Positions 14,483 to 25,713 of a stretch of 39,648 nt of DNA are shown here, in pieces. How positions within the stretch are numbered: position 1 is the stretch's first letter; the number at the start of each line of letters is the position of its first letter. Both the position numbers and the translations under genes were made by a program. This DNA is from Halanaerobium sp. MA284_MarDTE_T2. GTDB lineage: Bacteria > Bacillota > Halanaerobiia > Halanaerobiales > Halanaerobiaceae. The stretch is taken from assembly GCF_003337245.1 (NCBI RefSeq), contig NZ_QPJE01000020.1, forward strand, positions 1-39,648. The letters run 5' to 3'. The notes under the pieces were generated by a model. It saw only the letters and a program-made list of their open reading frames with translations. It was not told where the DNA came from and did no database searches.

Positions 14483-14575
14483 GGGGGTGAAAAAGAAAAA
14501 ATAATGAACAGTAGGTAAAAATTATTTGTTTTGGTCGAGTTATTACTGACGCTAATAAAAAAGGAGGAGAATATT

Positions 14576-15559
14576 TTGAGAAGTAAAATATTAGTAGTTG
14601 CTTTAACATTAATGGTGGTAATATTCTTTGTGGGAGCAAATGTTTATGCAGCTGATTATCCTAATAAGGATATTAAGATAGTTTGTCCTTGGGATGCTGG
14701 TGGAGGAACAGATGCAATAAATAGACAGGTTGCTAAAATGGCAGAAGAACATTTACCAGTTTCAATGTATGTAGAAAATATTACCGGTGGAGTAAGCGGA
14801 ATAGGAGTTTATGAGGTAATGAGTTCAATACCAGATGGTTATACAATTGGTTCATTAACATATGACAGTATAATTACTGTACCGAGACAAAATCTAGTTC
14901 CTGGATATAGTTTAGATAAACTAGAATTGATTTGTCGTGTAACTCAGGAAGCAGATTCACTTATGGTAAGTGGAAAATCAAAATGGGAAAGTTTTGAAGA
15001 ATTTATTGAATCAGCGGAAAAAAATCCGGGTGAGTTAGTAATAGGTATTCAAGGAAAAGGTTCGAGAGTTCATCTGACTGCTTTAAGAATACAGGATTTA
15101 TTAGGAGTTGAATTCAATTTGATTTCTTACCCATCTGGAGCAGGAGCACAGAAAGAAGCAGTATTGTCTGGCGAAGTAGATGCAGTTATTACAAGTATGG
15201 GAGATTTTGCTCCTTTAATTCAATCAGGTCAGGTACGACCTTTAGTTTCCATGGGATCAGGAAGAAATCCACAATTTAATAATGTTCCAACTATGAATGA
15301 ACTTGGACATGAATTAGAAATGGGAAGTTTTGTAGTATTTGCAGCTCCAGAAGGAACACCAGAAGATAGAGTAAAGATTTTAGAGGAAGCAATTCACAAA
15401 GCACATCAGAGTGAAGAATTCCAGACCTGGTTAAAACAGATTGGTGTAGTATCAAGTTGGATGGGAAGAGATGAAATTACAGATTGGGCTAGCAATATGC
15501 AGGAAGAGTATTTCTCCATTATGGATGAGTTAGTTGAACAAGGAGTAATTGAACAATAG
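14576..15559 (+). CDS. tctC: Tripartite tricarboxylate transporter, periplasmic-type substrate-binding protein (TctC/Bug)
   Basis: The 327-residue protein starts at TTG 14576, eight bases after AAGGAGG. The longer frame from 14531 lacks a ribosome site. An N-terminal signal peptide is clear: a charged start, a hydrophobic run of about 18 residues and a likely cut after VYA before ADYPNKD. The mature part has the Bug-family WDAGGGTDAINR loop near the start and typical length. It binds a carboxylate outside the membrane and delivers it to TctAB. A strong 30-bp palindrome follows it, which could stabilise its mRNA and keep its level above the membrane subunits. Confidence 0.92.
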   Translation: MRSKILVVALTLMVVIFFVGANVYAADYPNKDIKIVCPWDAGGGTDAINRQVAKMAEEHLPVSMYVENITGGVSGIGVYEVMSSIPDGYTIGSLTYDSIITVPRQNLVPGYSLDKLELICRVTQEADSLMVSGKSKWESFEEFIESAEKNPGELVIGIQGKGSRVHLTALRIQDLLGVEFNLISYPSGAGAQKEAVLSGEVDAVITSMGDFAPLIQSGQVRPLVSMGSGRNPQFNNVPTMNELGHELEMGSFVVFAAPEGTPEDRVKILEEAIHKAHQSEEFQTWLKQIGVVSSWMGRDEITDWASNMQEEYFSIMDELVEQGVIEQ

Positions 15560-15589
15560 TATACACACAATAACTTCTAATTATGTATA

Positions 15590-15619
15590 CTCCCCACCTA
15601 TTATATAATAGGTGGGGAG
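15590..15619 (+). promoter_or_regulatory. Perfect 30-bp palindrome between tctC and tctB
   Basis: CTCCCCACCTATTAT (15590-15604) is followed directly by its exact reverse complement (15605-15619). There is no T tract after it, so a true rho-independent terminator is unlikely. A hairpin at this place often protects the upstream binding-protein message and lowers downstream expression. An AGGAGG site for tctB follows. Confidence 0.85.
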
Positions 15620-15641
15620 ATAAAGAAGAGGAGGAATTAGA

Positions 15642-16121
15642 TTGAACTTTAAAAAAATCATAAATGGAACAATATTAGTATCAATTATATTCTTTATAAT
15701 AATTACTGTTTTTTTATTTGAAGCTTTAGAAACTGCACCACCATTAGTAAATGGTAAAATCAGTCCAACTTTTTTTCCAATAATTGTTTTAAGTTTAATG
15801 TATTTTGCTGATATAGTTATTTTTATAAAGGGTTTTAAAGAAGAAAAAGGTTTTGATTTTGACTTATCAACTTTAAAACACCCAACATGGGTTGTAATTG
15901 TAAGTTTTATTTATATAAATATTTTTAAAGTGATTGGATTTAGTTTATCAACATTTTTGTACGCATTTAGTTTAATTATGATTTTTAATCCTAAAAAAGG
16001 CAAAATCAAAGCGGTGGTTGCTGCTTTAATGATAACCGGTACCGTTTATTTATTATTTGAAGTTATTTTTGGAGTTAGACTACCAACAGTACATTTGCCA
16101 AAAATTGGAGGGATATATTGA
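15642..16121 (+). CDS. tctB: Tripartite tricarboxylate transporter, small membrane subunit TctB
   Basis: This 159-residue protein has four hydrophobic segments, the length and layout of TctB. The start is TTG just after GAGGAGGAATT. Its N-terminus carries LETAPPLVNGKISPTFFP, a segment resembling the exposed loop of TctB proteins. It is the small membrane partner of TctA. The stop codon overlaps the tctA ATG (TGATG). Confidence 0.85.
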   Translation: MNFKKIINGTILVSIIFFIIITVFLFEALETAPPLVNGKISPTFFPIIVLSLMYFADIVIFIKGFKEEKGFDFDLSTLKHPTWVVIVSFIYINIFKVIGFSLSTFLYAFSLIMIFNPKKGKIKAVVAALMITGTVYLLFEVIFGVRLPTVHLPKIGGIY

Positions 16122-17653
16122 TGGACTATATAAGTGGGGTAATTCAAGGATTTTTTGTATTATTGAATCCGGTAATATTTATACATTTAGTTCTGGGATT
16201 TTTAATTGGTACTTTTTTTGGAGCAGTACCTGGACTTACTTCTTGTTTAGCAATTGCTTTGCTTTTACCTATAACATATAGCATGGACACTACTGCTGCA
16301 TTGGTTATGTGTATGTCTATATTTATGTCGGGAATTTATTCTGGTAGTATAACTGCTACAACGATAAACATTCCAGGTGCTCCGTCGGGAATGATGACAG
16401 CCATAGAAGGTTATCCTCTAATGAAGAAAGGTGAAGGTGCAAAGGCATTAGGACACGCAGCTTTTGCTTCGATGGTTGGAGGTGCTATTGGAAGTATTTT
16501 ATTAATAATATTTGTACCTGTAGCTGCTCAGGTATCTTTATTGATTAAAACTCCTGGAAAATTTTCTCTTATATTTTTTGCTCTAGTAGTTATAATATTG
16601 GCACAGAGAGGAAAATCGTTTTCTAAAGGAGCTTTGGCAACACTTTTCGGAATACTTATTGGTACAATAGGTATTGATTTGATGGAGCCCGTTGCTCGTC
16701 TTACATTTGGAGTTACCAAGTTAACAGGAGGAGTACAACTAATGCCTGTTATTATTGGTACTTTTGCTATAAGTGAACTGCTGCTTCAATCAGAAACTGG
16801 AGATAAAAAAATTGCAGAAATAGAAGATGAAAGTATAAAGATTTATAGAAAAGATTTTATCCCAACTTTTAAAGAAATACGCGAGATAGGTGTTTGGAAA
16901 TATTTAAAGAGTTCTTTAATAGGATTTTTTACTGGTGTTTTGCCCGGAGCCGGTGGCTCTATGGCTGCTTTTGTTTCGTATGCAGAAGCTATAAGATCAT
17001 CAAAACATCCTGAAAAATTTGGTGGAGAGAGTATTGAAGGTATTGCATGTGCAGAAGCAGCAAATAATGGAATGTGCGGTGGAGCACTTGTACCAATGCT
17101 AACATTTGGAATTCCGGGTGATGCCACCAGTGCTATAGTTTTAGGTGTTCTTATAATTAATGGATTAAATCCTGGTCCACAGCTTTTGGAAAATCAGTTT
17201 CATTTAATTGCTCCTATGTTTGCAGCTCTTTTTATAAGCGCCATTGTTCTTCTTCCACTAACATTATATATATTTGGACCATATTATATGAAGATAGTGT
17301 CTATTAATAAAGGTGTTTTATATTCAAGTATTGCTGCTATTTCTATGGTTGGCGGATATGTATCAACTTATTCTGTGTTTCAAATGGGATTAACACTTTT
17401 ATTTGGAGTTTTTGCATATTTTTTACGCAAAAATAATTATCCCACTGTATCATTTCTTTTAGGTTATATATTGGGTGGTATGATGGAAGAATTTTTCAGA
17501 AGAGCACTTAATTTGAGTCATGGGAATATAATGATATTTTTTACAGAATGGGATAGTATAATATTCTTAGTTTTAACAGTTATCTTTATGTATTTTCTTC
17601 TCTTTAAAAAGACACCTCTTGCTAGTGAAGAGGTTTCAGTTAGCAGTGATTAG
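16121..17653 (+). CDS. tctA: Tripartite tricarboxylate transporter, large permease TctA
   Basis: This 510-residue permease has about ten to twelve membrane segments and the family's duplicated glycine-rich motifs: GAVPGLTSCLAIALLLP near residue 30 and GVLPGAGGSMAAFVSYA near 275, plus GIPGDATSAIVLG. The ATG at 16121 follows GGAGGG. A TTG three bases earlier is a possible alternative. TctA carries out ion-coupled uptake of the carboxylate delivered by TctC. It is the last gene of the AT-rich cluster; 129 bp follow before the next operon. Confidence 0.94.
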   Translation: MDYISGVIQGFFVLLNPVIFIHLVLGFLIGTFFGAVPGLTSCLAIALLLPITYSMDTTAALVMCMSIFMSGIYSGSITATTINIPGAPSGMMTAIEGYPLMKKGEGAKALGHAAFASMVGGAIGSILLIIFVPVAAQVSLLIKTPGKFSLIFFALVVIILAQRGKSFSKGALATLFGILIGTIGIDLMEPVARLTFGVTKLTGGVQLMPVIIGTFAISELLLQSETGDKKIAEIEDESIKIYRKDFIPTFKEIREIGVWKYLKSSLIGFFTGVLPGAGGSMAAFVSYAEAIRSSKHPEKFGGESIEGIACAEAANNGMCGGALVPMLTFGIPGDATSAIVLGVLIINGLNPGPQLLENQFHLIAPMFAALFISAIVLLPLTLYIFGPYYMKIVSINKGVLYSSIAAISMVGGYVSTYSVFQMGLTLLFGVFAYFLRKNNYPTVSFLLGYILGGMMEEFFRRALNLSHGNIMIFFTEWDSIIFLVLTVIFMYFLLFKKTPLASEEVSVSSD

Positions 17654-17782
17654 ATATGGGAAATTTAATTTTATTGTTTACAATATTTTAATATATTGCC
17701 TTAAATATGAATAAATTTTTGGAATATTTTATAAAGAATTTAACTTTAATAAAACTCATAATGACGAATAGGAGGGCCAGTT

Positions 17783-19246
17783 TTGAAAAAACAAAACTAC
17801 GATATTGCAATAATAGGAGGTGGTGTAGTCGGCACTGCCATTGCCAGAGAACTCAGCAGATATAAAACTGATGTATTGCTGATTGAAAAAGAAAATGATG
17901 TTGGCCAGGGGGCAAGCAACAGCAACAGTGGAGTGGTTCATTCTGGTTTTACAGCACCAGTCGGATCACTTAAAGCAGATGTATGTATGTACGGCAACAG
18001 CCATTTTGAAGAAATCTGCAGTGAACTGGATGTTCCTTATGAAAAAACAGGTAAGCTGGTAGTAGCTGTTGAAGAAAAACAGATTGCTGAACTGTACAAT
18101 CTGCAGTACATAGGTAGAAAAAATGGAGCAGAACTGTATATAGTTGGTGAAGATTTTATAGAAGAAAAAGAACCGAATATATCCGGTAAAGCAGCTATGT
18201 ATTCTCCCAACAGTGCGATTACAAGCCCATATGAGCTTACAATAGCCTTTGCAGAGAACGCACACCAAAACGGTGTAGAGATCAGCCTGAATACAAAGGT
18301 TGTAGAAATAAGCAAAAAGAATTCCAAATTCTCTGTCAAAACAGACAGGGGAGAAATACTAACAGATTATGTTATCAATTCTGCCGGACTTTATTCAGAT
18401 GAAATTGCAGCTTTTTCCGGTGAAGATAGATATAAAATATATCCCTGTCGGGGTGAATATTATGTACTGGATAAAAATGCATCAGGACTTATGTCCAGAC
18501 TTGTCTATCCGGTACCACCAGAAAATGCTGGAGGTTTAGGAATACACCTTACCCCGACTGTAGAGGGAAATATTTTGATAGGACCAAGCAATGAGTATAT
18601 TGATAGTGTTGATAATGAAGCAACTACAAAAGAAGTAATGGATAAACTGATAAAAGAAGCAAGAGATTTTCTTCCTAAAATAACCAGAGATATGGTAATA
18701 AGAAGCTATTCCGGTATCAGAAGCAAAATTGTTCCACCAGAAGTTGGTGGGTTTACAGATTTTGTGATAGAAAAAAGTCCTAAATATGATAACTTTATTA
18801 ACCTGATTGGAATTGAATCACCGGGACTTACTTCTGCACCGGGTATTGCAAAATATGTTGTAGAGATGATAGATGAAATGGAAAAATTAAGAGAAGATAA
18901 AGATTTTAAGAAAACAAGAAAAGGAATAACCAAATTTTATGAACTTCCCGAAGAAAAACAGAAAGAGCTTGCTGAAGACAATCCAAATTACAGAGAAATA
19001 GTATGCAGGTGTGAAAATATAACCAAACAGGAAATAATAGATGCTTTAAATAATCCGCTTGGAGTACAGACACTCAAAGGAGTTAAATACAGAGCCAGAG
19101 CTACTATGGGAAGATGTCAGGGAGGCTACTGTATGGCCAGAATAATAAAGATCATGCAGGATGAATTTGATATGGATCTGGAAGAAATTAAGCTGGAAGG
19201 CAATAACTCCAATCTGTTTGCTGGACAGGCAAAGGGGTGGGGATAA
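17783..19246 (+). CDS. FAD oxidoreductase with C-terminal [2Fe-2S] BFD-like domain (GlpA/L-2-hydroxyglutarate oxidase-like)
   Basis: This 487-residue flavoprotein has an N-terminal FAD site (IAIIGGGVVGTAIARELS), a DAO-fold body, and a C-terminal BFD-like iron-sulfur domain with cysteines in CRCEN and GRCQGGYCMARI. The DAO body resembles anaerobic glycerol-3-phosphate dehydrogenase GlpA and L-2-hydroxyglutarate oxidase; IHLTPTVEGNILIGPSN and IESPGLTSAPGIA fit the latter type. Either substrate is possible. No glycerol kinase or glycerol facilitator lies nearby, while a 2-oxoglutarate-type oxidoreductase does. The start is TTG after AGGAGGG. Codon use is less AT-rich than in the preceding cluster. 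It overlaps neither neighbour but lies 1 bp from the next gene. Confidence 0.82.
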   Translation: MKKQNYDIAIIGGGVVGTAIARELSRYKTDVLLIEKENDVGQGASNSNSGVVHSGFTAPVGSLKADVCMYGNSHFEEICSELDVPYEKTGKLVVAVEEKQIAELYNLQYIGRKNGAELYIVGEDFIEEKEPNISGKAAMYSPNSAITSPYELTIAFAENAHQNGVEISLNTKVVEISKKNSKFSVKTDRGEILTDYVINSAGLYSDEIAAFSGEDRYKIYPCRGEYYVLDKNASGLMSRLVYPVPPENAGGLGIHLTPTVEGNILIGPSNEYIDSVDNEATTKEVMDKLIKEARDFLPKITRDMVIRSYSGIRSKIVPPEVGGFTDFVIEKSPKYDNFINLIGIESPGLTSAPGIAKYVVEMIDEMEKLREDKDFKKTRKGITKFYELPEEKQKELAEDNPNYREIVCRCENITKQEIIDALNNPLGVQTLKGVKYRARATMGRCQGGYCMARIIKIMQDEFDMDLEEIKLEGNNSNLFAGQAKGWG

Positions 19247-19247
19247 A

Positions 19248-20492
19248 ATGATGAAAAAAGAACTTGTAATCATAGGAGCAGGACCGGCAGGATTAGCAGC
19301 CGCACTTGCTGCATATGAGGATGGAATTGAAGATATATTAATTATTGAAAGAGAAGAGAGACCGGGTGGAATCTTAAATCAGTGTATTCACGATGGTTTT
19401 GGTCTGCACAAATTTAAGGAAGTGCTGACAGGACCTGAATATGCACACCGCTATATAGATAAAGTTAGAGAAAAAGAATTAGAAATTATGACAAATACTA
19501 TTGTAACAGAATTAACAGATGAAAAAGAATTAAAAGCATTTAACGAAAATGACGGTATTCTCCACATAAAAGCAGAAGCTGTAATTTTAGCAATGGGAAG
19601 TAGAGAAAGAACAGCTGGTGGAATAAGCCTGCCAGGTGACAGACCTTCAGGTATATATACAGCAGGACTGGCACAGAATCTAATGAATCTGCAGAATATA
19701 CAGGTTGGCAAGAAAATTGTTATTCTGGGTTCTGGCGACATAGGTTTAATTATGGCAAGAAGGCTGACACTGGAGGGTGCTGATGTTAAAGCAGTACTCG
19801 AGATTATGCCTTATTCAAATGGATTAAGGAGAAATATTAACCAGTGTCTTGTTGATTATAATATCCCCTTAAAACTAAGTCAGACTGTAATAGATGTTAA
19901 AGGTGAAGACAGACTTGAGTCAGTTACTGCAGCAGAGGTTGATGAATCATTTAATCCAATTGAAGGTACAGAATATGAAATAGAATGTGATACTTTAATT
20001 CTTTCTGTTGGACTTATTCCCGAAAATGAGCTTTCTAAAAAGGCAAATGTTCAATTAGATGACACAACAGGTGGAGCAGTGGTGAAAGATAACCTGGAAA
20101 CAAATGTTGACGGAATATTTTCCTGTGGAAATGTTCTTCATGTACATGATCTGGTGGACTTTGTTTCTGATGAAGCAGAAAAAGCTGGTAAAGCAGCAGC
20201 TGAATATATTAAAAAAGGCCACAAATTGAACAAAGATAATATTTTTGTGGAAGCCGGAAGTGGAATAGGATATGTAATACCACAGGTTATTTCTAAAGAA
20301 AAAGATCAGATATTTTCTATGCGGGTTAGAAAACCGGATAATGAGAAAACTATAAAAATTGCAGCCGATGGAAAAATTCTTCATGAAGAGAATTTTGAAA
20401 AAGTAAATCCATCGGAAATGATAAAGATAAAAGTCAGCAGTGAAAAATTTAAACCACTGGAAAAATCAACGATAAAGGTGGTGGCTGAATAA
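19248..20492 (+). CDS. FAD/NAD(P)-dependent oxidoreductase, partner of the upstream flavoprotein
   Basis: This 414-residue protein has a pyridine nucleotide-disulfide-reductase-type fold. The FAD motif is IIGAGPAGLAAALAAYEDG, RPGGILNQCIHDGFG follows, and a second Rossmann motif (VILGSGDIGLIMARRLTLEG) binds NAD(P)H. FSCGNVLHVHDLVDFVSDEA marks the late FAD contact. Such proteins occur beside GlpA-like flavoproteins and DUF1667 in anaerobes and probably move electrons from substrate oxidation to a cytosolic acceptor. A longer frame starts at 19161, but it overlaps the upstream gene; GGGGTGGGG before ATGATG at 19248 decides the start. The stop overlaps the DUF1667 ATG. Confidence 0.86.
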   Translation: MMKKELVIIGAGPAGLAAALAAYEDGIEDILIIEREERPGGILNQCIHDGFGLHKFKEVLTGPEYAHRYIDKVREKELEIMTNTIVTELTDEKELKAFNENDGILHIKAEAVILAMGSRERTAGGISLPGDRPSGIYTAGLAQNLMNLQNIQVGKKIVILGSGDIGLIMARRLTLEGADVKAVLEIMPYSNGLRRNINQCLVDYNIPLKLSQTVIDVKGEDRLESVTAAEVDESFNPIEGTEYEIECDTLILSVGLIPENELSKKANVQLDDTTGGAVVKDNLETNVDGIFSCGNVLHVHDLVDFVSDEAEKAGKAAAEYIKKGHKLNKDNIFVEAGSGIGYVIPQVISKEKDQIFSMRVRKPDNEKTIKIAADGKILHEENFEKVNPSEMIKIKVSSEKFKPLEKSTIKVVAE

Positions 20493-20863
20493 TGACAGAA
20501 GAAAAAGATATTTCCTGTATATTATGTCCAAATGGATGTGATATAAAAATAAAATACCTGGATGATGAGATAATAGAAATTGAAGGTGCACTGTGTCCAA
20601 AGGGTAATGATTATGCAAAACAGGAAATTAAAAATCCAATGCGGACACTGACTTCTTCAGTGATGGTTGAAGGCGGGGATACTTCTCTTGTAAGTGTAAA
20701 GACTGATAAACCAGTTCCATTAGAAAAAGTAATGGATATTATGGATGTAATTGATGACCTGAGAGTAAAAGCCCCTGTTTCAGTAGGAGATGTTATTTTA
20801 GATTCTCCTGCTGGATTAGACTGCAGTATTGTTGCTACAAGAGAAGTTAAAATAAATATATAG
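20492..20863 (+). CDS. DUF1667 protein, iron-sulfur-like partner of the flavoprotein pair
   Basis: The 123-residue protein begins with CILCPNGCDIKI and has a further CPKG at about residue 35. These four cysteines could hold a metal or Fe-S cluster. It matches DUF1667, a family encoded with GlpA/GlpB-like flavoproteins. Its biochemical role is not established; an electron-carrying or assembly role is inferred. The TAATG overlap with the upstream stop shows it is the third gene of the operon. Repeat copy B begins 12 bp after its stop. Confidence 0.85.
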   Translation: MTEEKDISCILCPNGCDIKIKYLDDEIIEIEGALCPKGNDYAKQEIKNPMRTLTSSVMVEGGDTSLVSVKTDKPVPLEKVMDIMDVIDDLRVKAPVSVGDVILDSPAGLDCSIVATREVKINI

Positions 20864-21047: not shown

Positions 21048-21077
21048 ATCCTGCTGGAATTTTCTGGCAGGATATTT
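21048..21077 (+). terminator. Copied hairpin terminator before the car promoter
   Basis: This is the same ATCCTGC...GCAGGAT hairpin as at 6912-6937, carried along in copy B. Here it separates the flavoprotein operon from the carAB promoter. Confidence 0.55.
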
Positions 21078-21101
21078 ATTTAAAGAAATATTCTAATCTG
21101 C

Positions 21102-21130
21102 TTGACTTATGTATGATGCTATGATATTAT
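21102..21130 (+). promoter_or_regulatory. carAB promoter
   Basis: TTGACT (21102-21107) and TATTAT (21125-21130) are separated by 17 bp. It begins 8 bp after repeat copy B ends, and transcription would start just ahead of the first PyrR-type site, giving a leader of about 260 bases. Confidence 0.75.
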
Positions 21131-21157
21131 TGGTGAAAATAAATTGTTCTTTAAATT

Positions 21158-21226
21158 AGTCCAGAGAGGCTAGTAAGGAAAAATATAGACAAAATTCCCT
21201 TCTTACTTGCCGTAAGAAGATTTTTT
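21158..21226 (+). promoter_or_regulatory. PyrR-type attenuator 1
   Basis: The AGTCCAGAGAGGCT element (21158-21171) matches the consensus loop of PyrR-binding RNA. A terminator hairpin follows: CTTCTTAC (21199-21206) with GTAAGAAG (21212-21219), then a run of six T. In this known mechanism, uridine nucleotide-loaded PyrR stabilises the anti-antiterminator so that the terminator forms. No gene separates it from the second attenuator. pyrR itself is not in the window. Confidence 0.88.
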
Positions 21227-21270
21227 ATTTAAATTTTTATTTAAAACTTAATATTATTTCCCTTTAAATC

Positions 21271-21367
21271 AGTCCAGAGAGACTGAAAAGGAGATATTTA
21301 AGAGCAAGGTAATATTTCGCCCTGCCAATTTAACTTCTTATCAGTTTATCTGGTGAGGAGTTTTTTT
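21271..21367 (+). promoter_or_regulatory. PyrR-type attenuator 2
   Basis: The AGTCCAGAGAGACT element (21271-21284) is flanked by CAGT/ACTG pairing. The terminator is a 13-bp stem with some GU pairs (21332-21344 with 21350-21362) followed by seven T starting at 21361. It lies 32 bp before the carA start. The two attenuators in series should give tighter pyrimidine repression than one. Confidence 0.88.
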
Positions 21368-21398
21368 ATTTCTAAAATATTTTAGCAGGAGGCTGATA

Positions 21399-22472
21399 AT
21401 GAAGAAAGCTAGGCTTGTTTTAGAAGATGGCAGTATTTTTAAAGGCAGCATATTTGGAGCAGAAAATGAAGCAGCTGGTGAAGTGGTCTTTAATACCAGT
21501 ATGACAGGATATCAGGAAATATTAACCGATCCCTCATACAAAGGTGAGATAGTCTGTATGACATATCCGCTGATTGGAAATTATGGTATAAATAAAGACG
21601 ACTTTGAATCTTCAAGACCACATTTAAATGGGTTTATTGTCAGGGAGTTTGCTGAAAATCCTGAAAATTGGAGAAGTAGAGAAAAGTTAAATGATTATCT
21701 GGTTAATAACAATATAACAGCAATCAGCGGTATTGATACAAGAGCACTTACGAAAATACTTCGCAGCCGGGGAACAATGAGAGGAATTATAACGGCTGAA
21801 CAAGAAACGGAAAATAAGTTAATAGAGAAAGCTAAGAATGTTCTCGGTCTTTCTGGAAGAGATCTGGTTTCACTGGTCAGCAGCAAAGATGTGCAGAAAT
21901 ATGGCAGTAATAATAAATACAGAGTAGTATTAATCGACTGTGGAGCAAAAGATAATATTAAAAATTCACTTTTGAAGCGTGACTGTGAAGTTATAGTTGT
22001 ACCGGCAGATATGTCTGCTGCTGAAATATTAGCATACAGAGCAGATGGGGTAATGATTTCCAATGGGCCTGGTGATCCGGATGATGCAGATTATGCTGCA
22101 GAAACAATAAAAAAACTGCTTGGAAAGCTGCCGCTGTTTGGAATCTGTCTCGGCCATCAGCTTTTGGGAAAAGCCTGTGGGGCGAAAACCTTTAGATTGA
22201 AATTTGGACACCGTGGAGCAAATCATCCTGTTAAAGATTTCAAAACAAATAAAGTTTATATAACTTCTCAAAATCATGGATTTGCACTTGATGATAAATC
22301 ACTTTCAGAACTTGATTTAAATTTAACACATGTAAATGTTAATGACGGTACTGTTGAGGGTATTGAACACAAAAAGTATCCAGCTTTTTCGGTACAATAT
22401 CATCCGGAGGCTTCACCTGGCCCGGAAGATTCGCATTATTTATTTGATCAATTTATAGAAATGTTTGATTAA
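21399..22472 (+). CDS. carA: Carbamoyl-phosphate synthase, small (glutaminase) subunit
   Basis: This 357-residue subunit hydrolyses glutamine and passes ammonia to CarB for carbamoyl-phosphate, used in pyrimidine and arginine synthesis. The N-terminal CarA domain (FNTSMTGYQEILTDPSY) and the class-I amidotransferase domain are complete: nucleophile Cys250 in FGICLGHQLLG, then HRGANHPV and the QYHPEASPGP His/Glu end of the triad. AGCAGGAGG precedes the ATG. Two PyrR-type attenuators upstream show the copy is controlled by pyrimidines. carB follows after 31 bp. Confidence 0.97.
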   Translation: MKKARLVLEDGSIFKGSIFGAENEAAGEVVFNTSMTGYQEILTDPSYKGEIVCMTYPLIGNYGINKDDFESSRPHLNGFIVREFAENPENWRSREKLNDYLVNNNITAISGIDTRALTKILRSRGTMRGIITAEQETENKLIEKAKNVLGLSGRDLVSLVSSKDVQKYGSNNKYRVVLIDCGAKDNIKNSLLKRDCEVIVVPADMSAAEILAYRADGVMISNGPGDPDDADYAAETIKKLLGKLPLFGICLGHQLLGKACGAKTFRLKFGHRGANHPVKDFKTNKVYITSQNHGFALDDKSLSELDLNLTHVNVNDGTVEGIEHKKYPAFSVQYHPEASPGPEDSHYLFDQFIEMFD

Positions 22473-22503: not shown

Positions 22504-25500
22504 ATGCCGCTGAGAAAAGATATCAAAAAGGTAATGGTTATTGGTTCAGGTCCAATTATTATTGGTCAGGCAGCAGAATTTGATTATTCGGGAAGTCAGG
22601 CCTGTCGTGCTTTAAAAGAAGAGGGTATTGAAGTTGTACTCATAAATAGTAATCCAGCAACAATTATGACAGATGAAAACATGGCAGATCGAGTATATAT
22701 TGAACCTTTAACTCTGGAGAGTATTACAGAGATTATAAAAAAAGAAAAACCGGATGGGTTGATTCCAACTTTAGGTGGTCAGATTGCTTTAAATCTGGCA
22801 ATTAATCTGGCAGAAACAGGTATATTAGAAGAGTTAAATGTAGAGCTTTTGGGAACTCCGATTTCCACAATAGAAAAAGCAGAAGATAGGAATACCTTTA
22901 AAGAATTGATGAATCAGATTGGAGAACCAGTACTGGAAAGTAGAACCGCTGAAAATATTGAGCAGGCTGCTGAAACTGCAGCTCGAATTGGCTATCCTGT
23001 GATTGTTAGACCTGCCTATACAATGGGAGGAACAGGTGGTGGAGTAGCAGAGAATTTAGAAGAGTTAAAAGAAATTGCTGTACGGGGATTTAAACACAGT
23101 TTAATTGGACAAATTTTGATAGAAAAAAGTATTAAAGGCTGGAAAGAAATTGAATATGAAGTTATGCGGGATGCCGGTGATAACTGTATAGTTGTCTGTA
23201 ATATGGAGAATTTTGATCCGGTTGGAGTACATACCGGTGACAGTATAGTTGCTGCTCCCAGTCAGACTTTAACAGACAAAGAATATCAGATGTTTAGAAG
23301 TTCAGCCCTGAAAATAATAAAAGCTTTAGGAATTGAAGGTGGCTGTAATGTTCAGTATGCACTGGATCCAGAAAGCTTTCAGTATTATATAATAGAGGTT
23401 AATCCCAGAGTAAGCCGCTCCAGTGCACTTGCATCTAAAGCAACAGGATATCCAATTGCAAAAGTGTCGGCTAAGATTGCTTTGGGATACAGGCTGGATG
23501 AAATAAAGAATGCGGTGACAGGTGAAACTACAGCCTGCTTTGAGCCAGCCCTGGATTATGTGGTATTTAAGATTCCACGCTGGCCTTTTGATAAATTCCA
23601 TTATGCTGATCGAAAACTTGGAACTCAGATGAAGGCCACAGGTGAAGTTATGGCACTGGAAAGAAGTCTGGAAGCCTCTATGCTGAAGGCAGTCAGATCA
23701 ATGGAGATTGGCTGCAGTGGTCTTTATATAGAAGAAAGTAAAGATTTAAGTGATAAGGATATCAGAGAACTTCTCAAAAAAGCAGATGACAGCAGATTGT
23801 TTATTATAGCTGAAGCTATGCGCAGAGGTTGGACTGTAGAAGAAGTATTTCAGATAACTGAAATAAGCACATTTTTTCTTAATAAAATAAAAAATATAAT
23901 TGATATAGAAAAAGAGTTAAATAAAGTTAATAGTGAAGGACCTGACAGACAGCTGCTGAAAAAAGCAAAAGAAAAGGGTTTTTCGGATAGAGAGATCGGT
24001 ATTTTTACCGGGAATACAGAAGCGAAAATTAAAAACATTAGAGAAAAGTATAAACTAAAACCAGTTTACAAAATGGTTGACACATGTGCGGCAGAGTTTG
24101 AAGCAGAAACACCTTATTATTATTCATCTTACGAAGAATATAATGAAGCAGAAGCAGCTGCGGAGAAAAAAGTAATTGTTCTTGGTTCTGGGCCTATTCG
24201 AATTGGTCAGGGTATAGAATTTGATTACTGCAGTGTCCACTCGGCCTGGGCACTTGCTGAAGCTGGATACGAATCTATCATTGTAAATAACAATCCAGAA
24301 ACTGTAAGCACTGATTTTGATACTTCAGATAGATTATATTTTGAATCACTTACAAAAGAAGATATTATACACATTGTAGATAACGAAAAGCCAGAAGGGG
24401 TAATTGTCCAGTTTGGGGGTCAGACAGCAGTAAATTTGAGTAAAGATCTGGCAGATGAAGGGGTTAATATACTTGGCACACCAATAAATTCAATCGATCT
24501 GGCAGAAGATAGAGAACGATTTATTAAATTGTTAAAGAAAATCAATATTCCCGTTCCAGATGGCAGGATGGCACTGTCGCTGAATGAAGCAGAAAAAATT
24601 GCCAAAGAAATAGAATACCCGGTACTGGTTAGACCCTCTTATGTGCTCGGTGGGAGAGCTATGGAAGTTGTATATAATAAAAATGAATTAAAAGAATATA
24701 TGGCAAATGCAGTTAAAGTTTCTGCAGACCGGCCGGTATTAATTGATAAGTACTTAATAGGAAATGAAATTGAAGTTGATGCAGTCTCTGATGGTGAAAC
24801 GGTTATAATTCCAGGTATAATGGAACATATAGAAAAAGCTGGGGTTCACTCTGGAGATAGTATAGCTGTTTATCCTCCACAAAAACTTTCTGAAGAATTA
24901 AAAGAAAAGGTGTCCGAATATACCATCAAACTTGCAAAAGAATTAAAAATAAAAGGTGTATTAAATATTCAGTATGTTGTCAGCAATAATAAGGTATATG
25001 TAATAGAAGTTAATCCTCGCTCAAGCAGAACAATTCCCTATTTGAGCAAAGTTACTGGTGTACCAATGATAGAGCTTGCCACAAAAGCTATTCTGGGCCA
25101 TAAATTAAAAAATATGGGCTGGAACAGTGGAATTATTCCTGAAAAACCCCATACAGCTGTAAAAGTTCCGGTCTTTTCGTTTTCCAAACTTGCCAGGGTT
25201 GACACCAATTTAGGTCCAGAGATGAAATCCACGGGAGAAGTTTTGGGACTGGCAGAAGATTATGAGACAGCATTATATAAAGGTTTAACAGCAGCAGGAA
25301 TAGAAATTCCTCAAAAAGGAAAAATACTTGCCACAATTGCAGATAGTGATAAAAAAGAATCTTTAAATTATATTAAAGAATTTGTTGAACTTGGATTTGC
25401 GGTAGCTGCAACTGAAGGAACAGCAGCTGTGCTTAAAGAAGAAGGTATTAAAGTTGAAGATATCAAGAAGATATCTGAGGGATCACCGAACTCTGTTGAA

Positions 25501-25713
25501 AAAATATTTGCCGATGAAATAGACCTGGTAATAAATACGATGACAAAGGGGAAAATACCGGAAAGAGATGGATTTAAAATCAGGCGGGCGGCAGCAGAAA
25601 TGGGAATTCCATGTCTTACATCACTGGATACTGCAGCAGCAATGCTTAGAGTATTAAAGACTATCAATTCAGAAGAAAAGATTGAGTACAGAGCACTACA
25701 GGATTATAATTAA
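22504..25713 (+). CDS. carB: Carbamoyl-phosphate synthase, large subunit
   Basis: This 1069-residue subunit contains the usual two homologous halves, each with an ATP-grasp domain. The first opens with [21 protein letters not shown] and the second, near residue 560, with [20 protein letters not shown]. The oligomerisation region lies between them, and the C-terminal MGS-type regulatory domain follows residue about 930 ([16 protein letters not shown]). The length is that of full CarB. AGGAGG precedes the ATG. No clear terminator was found in the 128 bp before the convergent EamA gene. Confidence 0.97.

Follow-up and report, generated by a model that had tools for sequence, protein, structure and literature searches.

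The window analysed here is a whole stretch of 39,648 nucleotides from Halanaerobium sp. MA284_MarDTE_T2, in which two complete PyrR attenuators stand one after the other before the carbamoyl-phosphate synthase genes carA and carB, as the sequence-only reading had proposed. Each attenuator has a binding loop, an antiterminator strand and an intrinsic terminator, and the car leader is by its anatomy a complete double attenuator. The features are:

21048 to 21073, forward strand: terminator-like hairpin where the upstream gene cluster gives way to the car leader (11 pairs, weak U-run)
21102 to 21130, forward strand: promoter-like site P1, TTGACT-17-TATTAT, with TG before the -10
21144 to 21229, forward strand: PyrR attenuator unit 1, a compact unit of the pyrR-leader type (RF00515 45.2 bits, under the cut-off)
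21147 to 21180, forward strand: binding loop 1 (lower stem 21147-21152/21175-21180, upper stem 21156-21161/21168-21173, loop CAGAGA)
21168 to 21178, forward strand: antiterminator strand 1, GGCUAGUAAGG, partner 21199-21211 (from prefix folds)
21199 to 21226, forward strand: intrinsic terminator 1 (8-bp stem 21199-21219, six U 21221-21226)
21257 to 21369, forward strand: PyrR attenuator unit 2, an extended unit of the carA/uraA type that includes a middle hairpin (RF00515 58.4 bits)
21261 to 21291, forward strand: binding loop 2 (lower stem 21261-21265/21287-21291, upper stem 21269-21274/21281-21286)
21283 to 21293, forward strand: antiterminator strand 2, CUGAAAAGGAG, partner 21334-21344 (from prefix folds)
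21332 to 21367, forward strand: intrinsic terminator 2 (13-bp stem 21332-21362, seven U 21361-21367)
21399 to 22472, forward strand: carA, carbamoyl-phosphate synthase small subunit (Pfam, NCBIfam)
22504 to 25713, forward strand: carB, carbamoyl-phosphate synthase large subunit (Pfam, NCBIfam)

Upstream of the leader, at 14531-20863, lie genes for TctC and TctA transporter proteins and two FAD-dependent oxidoreductases, and a DUF1667 gene.

The Rfam model RF00515 matches the car leader at 21144-21229 (unit 1, E 6.3e-5 in 701 bases) and at 21257-21369 (unit 2); the curated cut-off of 54 bits places unit 2 above it and unit 1 below. In the 2.47-Mb genome as a whole, four matches stand out as credible, with E values of 1.8e-7, 3.2e-7, 3.7e-7 and 5.4e-5, the last being car unit 1, and the next best match has an E value of 0.10. 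The binding-loop sequences, AGTCCAGAGAGGCT at 21158-21171 and AGTCCAGAGAGACT at 21271-21284, lie exactly where the sequence-only reading had put them; its span of 21158-21367 placed the loops correctly and began at the first loop instead of at the start of unit 1 at 21144. The two-loop pattern is found a single time in the window and never in 100 shuffles. The loop starts are 113 bases apart and 27 bases separate the units. An interval free of genes had been described here, and a forward-strand scan for ORFs of at least 80 amino acids between the units indeed came up empty; the arrangement of a promoter before and carAB after both units also holds, with P1 as the promoter-like site. A match of the PyrG leader model RF02371 over the car units (23.9 bits, cut-off 65) was dismissed as chance, as were other weak Rfam matches.

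PyrR binding loops follow the consensus ARUCCNGNGAGGYU on a two-part stem. The loop of unit 1 fits it exactly and has the commonest form (24/54) among the distinct Halanaerobiales units collected, a set made up of fetched loci that fit the loop pattern, many of them from close relatives. In unit 2 an A replaces the first G of GGYU and the U-A pair is kept; loops of this AGACT type are a natural minority (6/54, the window's own included), and the variant is found in both loops of three C. difficile loci. The two loop forms of the window may differ in their affinity for PyrR, as the sequence-only reading suggested. Both stems form in each unit.

Growing transcripts were folded in two-base steps, either free or with the loop locked as PyrR would hold it (prefix folds). 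In free RNA the terminator arm pairs upstream at 3' ends 21212-21216 in unit 1 and 21352-21356 in unit 2, and with the loop locked it does not. The two folds are mutually exclusive: the partner of antiterminator strand 1, 21199-21211, is the 5' arm and loop of terminator 1. RNA folding had been suggested as a check on whether one unit might be unable to form its antiterminator; both can. The control units before pyrR and uraA in the same genome switch like the car units, the antiterminator being favoured over 9 two-base steps in the uraA unit as against 3 in each car unit. Full-length minimum-energy folds without PyrR prefer loop plus terminator in both car units and both controls; readthrough must therefore depend on timing (kinetic antitermination). 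The antiterminator energies of the two car units are moderately better than those of shuffles (p 0.032 and 0.01), in a test that is weak per unit across the collection (11/49 units at p <= 0.01), and when antiterminator arms were swapped, 7/48 and 10/48 foreign arms were at least as good, in a test with a moderate outcome across the collection (own arm within the best quarter for 24/49 units). When the whole car leader is folded, 10.6 of 79.8 expected pairs join one unit's stretch to the other's, and the car units are therefore imperfectly insulated.

PyrR itself is encoded in the genome (NCBIfam NF003549, 266 bits against a cut-off of 138), and the other two credible units flank its gene on contig 7. 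The order there is unit-pyrR-unit-uraA-pyrB-pyrC-pyrF-pyrK-pyrD-pyrE, where uraA and pyrK are named from the best NCBIfam equivalog, each below that model's own cut-off. Alignment within the genome pairs car unit 1 with the pyrR unit (score 52.5) and car unit 2 with the uraA unit (44.0), the remaining four pairs scoring 27.5-29.5. Among the 53 other collected units, car unit 1 has only pyrR-leader units for its six nearest neighbours, and car unit 2 only uraA or carA units for its six. With unit 1 of the pyrR type (A) and unit 2 of the carA/uraA type (B), carAB therefore has an A-then-B series, as does uraA-pyrBCFKDE.

The similarity to pyrR leaders extends upstream of unit 1. When the 74 bases before it were compared with 26 relatives' upstream regions, the six best all preceded pyrR (scores 20-28.5), while the genome's own pyrR promoter scored 18 against the P1 region, a weak result reached by 25/1000 shuffles. 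The 12-mer CTGCTTGACTTA (21098-21109) has just two copies in the genome, one before carA unit 1 and one before pyrR; the chance expectation of such a recurrence is estimated at about 0.3. By these resemblances, the car leader combines a pyrR-type promoter and attenuator with an attenuator of the carA/uraA type behind them. That unit 1 is a recent copy of the genome's own pyrR leader was considered and rejected: the two core units are much alike, but the DNA upstream of unit 1 matches the pyrR promoters of relatives better than the genome's own, and an older event is therefore more likely.

PyrR is encoded in 33 of 38 Halanaerobiales genomes, and the 5 without a pyrR match are also without a PyrR unit; 29 of the 33 have at least one unit, and in the other 4 none was found. 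Counting matches at E <= 0.01, 29/38 genomes have a PyrR match and 4 of these 29 carry stacks, five pairs in all: before carA in the window's genome (G000), before pyrB in G013 and G020, and before both pyrB and argC in G021. Twenty of the 38 genomes have a carA match, and in 14 of these a unit lies directly before carA (within about 150 bases). Among those 14, only the window's genome has two; 13 relatives have a single unit by coordinates, and one loop was seen in each of five such leaders read by eye. The case of G011 is ambiguous because its contig ends. The argC stack of G021 (L059 5931-5739, minus strand) is followed on the same strand by argB, argD and carA, and would place arginine genes under pyrimidine control. 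Unit 1 of the G013 pyrB leader (L055, about 10465-10448, minus strand; Rfam 43.7 bits) has the loop GGTACTGAGAGACC, unlike the usual TCCAGAGAG core, and in the same leader, at about 10330-10294 on the minus strand, the 3' arm of the second loop holds the Shine-Dalgarno site, after an ordinary attenuator. Another Halanaerobiales locus, L060, has a match to the selenocysteine insertion element SECIS_4 at 271-308 (Rfam, 56.6 bits, cut-off 38).

We consider it likely that the carAB leader is a serial double PyrR attenuator of A-then-B origin that would multiply repression. One polymerase starting at P1 would read two PyrR-dependent transcription attenuators in series. When UMP is plentiful, PyrR-UMP would bind each car unit and keep its loop closed and its antiterminator strand occupied, and the terminator behind would form; when UMP is scarce, the antiterminator strand would pair with the 5' arm of the terminator and the polymerase would pass. 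A transcript must escape both terminators, and readthrough would therefore be roughly (1-t1)(1-t2), with the repression by the two units multiplying if they act independently. The leader may have arisen when a pyrR-type promoter and compact attenuator were placed before a carA/uraA-type attenuator, and control by the series shared with uraA-pyrBCFKDE would match carbamoyl phosphate supply to its use.

If a second promoter lay between the units, unit 2 would serve a transcript of its own and most carAB mRNA would meet one switch. A promoter-like TTTAAA-18-TATTAT does occur at 21228-21257 (9/12), but promoter-like matches are found at chance level (33 against 27.8 +/- 4.8 in shuffles of 7.5 kb). 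By the usual spacing such a transcript would begin at about 21264. This position falls within the 5' arm of binding loop 2 (21261-21265), and the transcript would therefore be without most of the lower stem. Other stacks also leave scant room for a promoter, the argC pair being directly abutting (L059 5835-5931 and 5739-5834, minus strand), and we think an internal promoter very improbable. The idea that unit 1 is a weak or decaying remnant, with regulation by unit 2, draws on its Rfam score below the cut-off (45.2 against 54) and on a terminator of only 8 pairs, 3 of them G-C. Possible decay is also seen in two Terrisporobacter loci (L089, L092), where unit 1 retains the loop and lower stem and a scripted search found no terminator. 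Unit 1 of the window, however, has the commonest loop form, with both stems and the antiterminator intact, and in prefix folds it behaves as a switch, as does the pyrR unit of its own genome; we regard its decay as unlikely.

The history of the leader allows a different account, in which a promoter-unit-pyrR-unit segment was copied and then lost pyrR, with carAB now behind what is left. The function would be as in the serial double attenuator described above, and the history alone would differ. The A-then-B order equals that of the units flanking pyrR, and in one relative (G004, contig 4) carAB and the pyrR operon lie together, about 5 kb apart; here carAB is on another contig. On the other hand, the 27 bases between the units hold no visible remnant of pyrR, and unit 2 fits carA units about as well as uraA units. 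Such a scar is a real possibility, if not the origin that we favour.

In the Bacillus subtilis pyr operon, each of the attenuators BL1-BL3 is parted from the next by a gene. The car leader resembles that system in its PyrR loops, antiterminators and terminators, but places two attenuators one directly after the other, ahead of a single operon. Tandem T-boxes and riboswitches likewise have two copies per leader, and are proposed to sharpen or deepen control. Tandem glycine riboswitches share one expression platform; in the car leader the sensor is a protein-nucleotide complex, and each copy has its own terminator. Published passages describe the B. subtilis PyrR as activated by UMP, with binding loops that disrupt the antiterminator so that the terminator forms, and with three loops on one mRNA (PMC4403831, PMC4347634). 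A duplicated T-box is mentioned, and PyrR listed beside other RNA elements, in a passage of PMC4342826; 211 pyrR sites are counted in PMC3766115, where the passage on tandem arrangements concerns two-copy glycine riboswitches. Among the papers listed from the open-licence literature none is on directly stacked PyrR elements, and the passages describe no such stack, an absence that is weak evidence. Reported effects of PyrR are modest: about 2-fold for one pneumococcal element (PMC10942264), and a 6.3-fold rise of the pyr transcript, mid-operon, on deletion of pyrR in B. subtilis (PMC4403831). Stacking would be a simple means of making control deeper or steeper with the regulator already present, and it points to PyrR units as portable modules.

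The search for other stacked cases that the sequence-only reading called for was carried out as an exact-pattern scan of one genome per species in 84,980 species. It matched 106 stretches, 80 of which became loci; 39 of the 80 (hence at least 39 among the 106 stretches) were judged by eye to be real stacks, except that the leaders of L124, L131, L137 and L144 were classed from scripted analysis alone. The statement that such attenuators normally stand one before each gene was too strong, because stacks recur in other genomes. Forty loci were rejected by eye as unlike PyrR units, with GC-rich sequence, repeats, or neither lower stems nor terminators. L150 (Paenibacillus) was rejected by eye too, its second 'loop' being the 3' arm of the terminator. 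A script that required both terminators and both lower stems accepted 29 of 58 loop pairs, the window and L058-L060 included, by a cruder criterion that counts some Shine-Dalgarno hairpins as terminators. PyrR was present in all eight genomes checked among the scan loci.

Thirteen of the 39 stacks are attenuator-attenuator pairs as in the window: one before pyrB, the argC pair of G021, and 11 (three of them C. difficile) in what we take to be the family Peptostreptococcaceae. carA was confirmed downstream in 9 of these 11; in the 8 whose leader sequence extended far enough, a gene that we read as a putative pyrF stands before carA. Three stacks are incomplete (L089, L092, L143). In the other 23 the second unit looks translational, covering or sequestering the Shine-Dalgarno site.

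In 19 of these 23, the second unit appears to hide the Shine-Dalgarno site by way of a competing strand. uraA was confirmed downstream in 17, while L109 is truncated and L081 stands before a putative membrane-protein gene. The 17 uraA-leader hybrids (Clostridium/Tissierellia) are L077, L085, L093, L105, L107, L108, L118, L119, L121, L123, L126, L131, L134, L135, L145, L148 and L151; their unit 1 is a transcription attenuator, and the 3' arm of their unit 2 loop seems to compete for the anti-Shine-Dalgarno strand. In the other 4 the Shine-Dalgarno site lies in the 3' arm of the second loop itself, after an ordinary attenuator (L098 and L132, both Tepidibacter pyrB; L073 and L112, both Neobacillus). 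The pyrR gene of Mycobacterium smegmatis is under translational repression by a PyrR loop over the ribosome-binding site, a single element with no upstream attenuator. The second unit of some stacks resembles it, whereas unit 2 of the window is of the terminator type.

We lean slightly towards the view that PyrR stacking is a widespread two-stage device that evolved repeatedly, by which the same PyrR-UMP signal acts twice on one transcript. It would exist in two designs: two attenuators, as here, or an attenuator with a PyrR switch on the ribosome-binding site behind it. On this view the car stack came from shuffling of promoter-attenuator modules between pyr operons. The uraA-leader hybrids are possibly a two-level PyrR switch, of transcription and translation. 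If so, one RNA-binding protein would use two copies of the same loop to control transcription and translation of one message.

The effect of PyrR on the second unit was modelled by locking the second loop in 23 loci, 22 of which had a recognisable start codon; these are computed folds and no evidence of function. With the lock, the Shine-Dalgarno site was computed to be less open in 22/22, a drop that is expected almost by construction in the four loci with the site in the loop arm itself. The decrease ranged from large (0.75 to 0.20, 0.70 to 0.17) to negligible (0.30 to 0.28, 0.37 to 0.35, 0.23 to 0.20), and in 16 of the 18 other translation-type loci the site was already less than half open without the lock.
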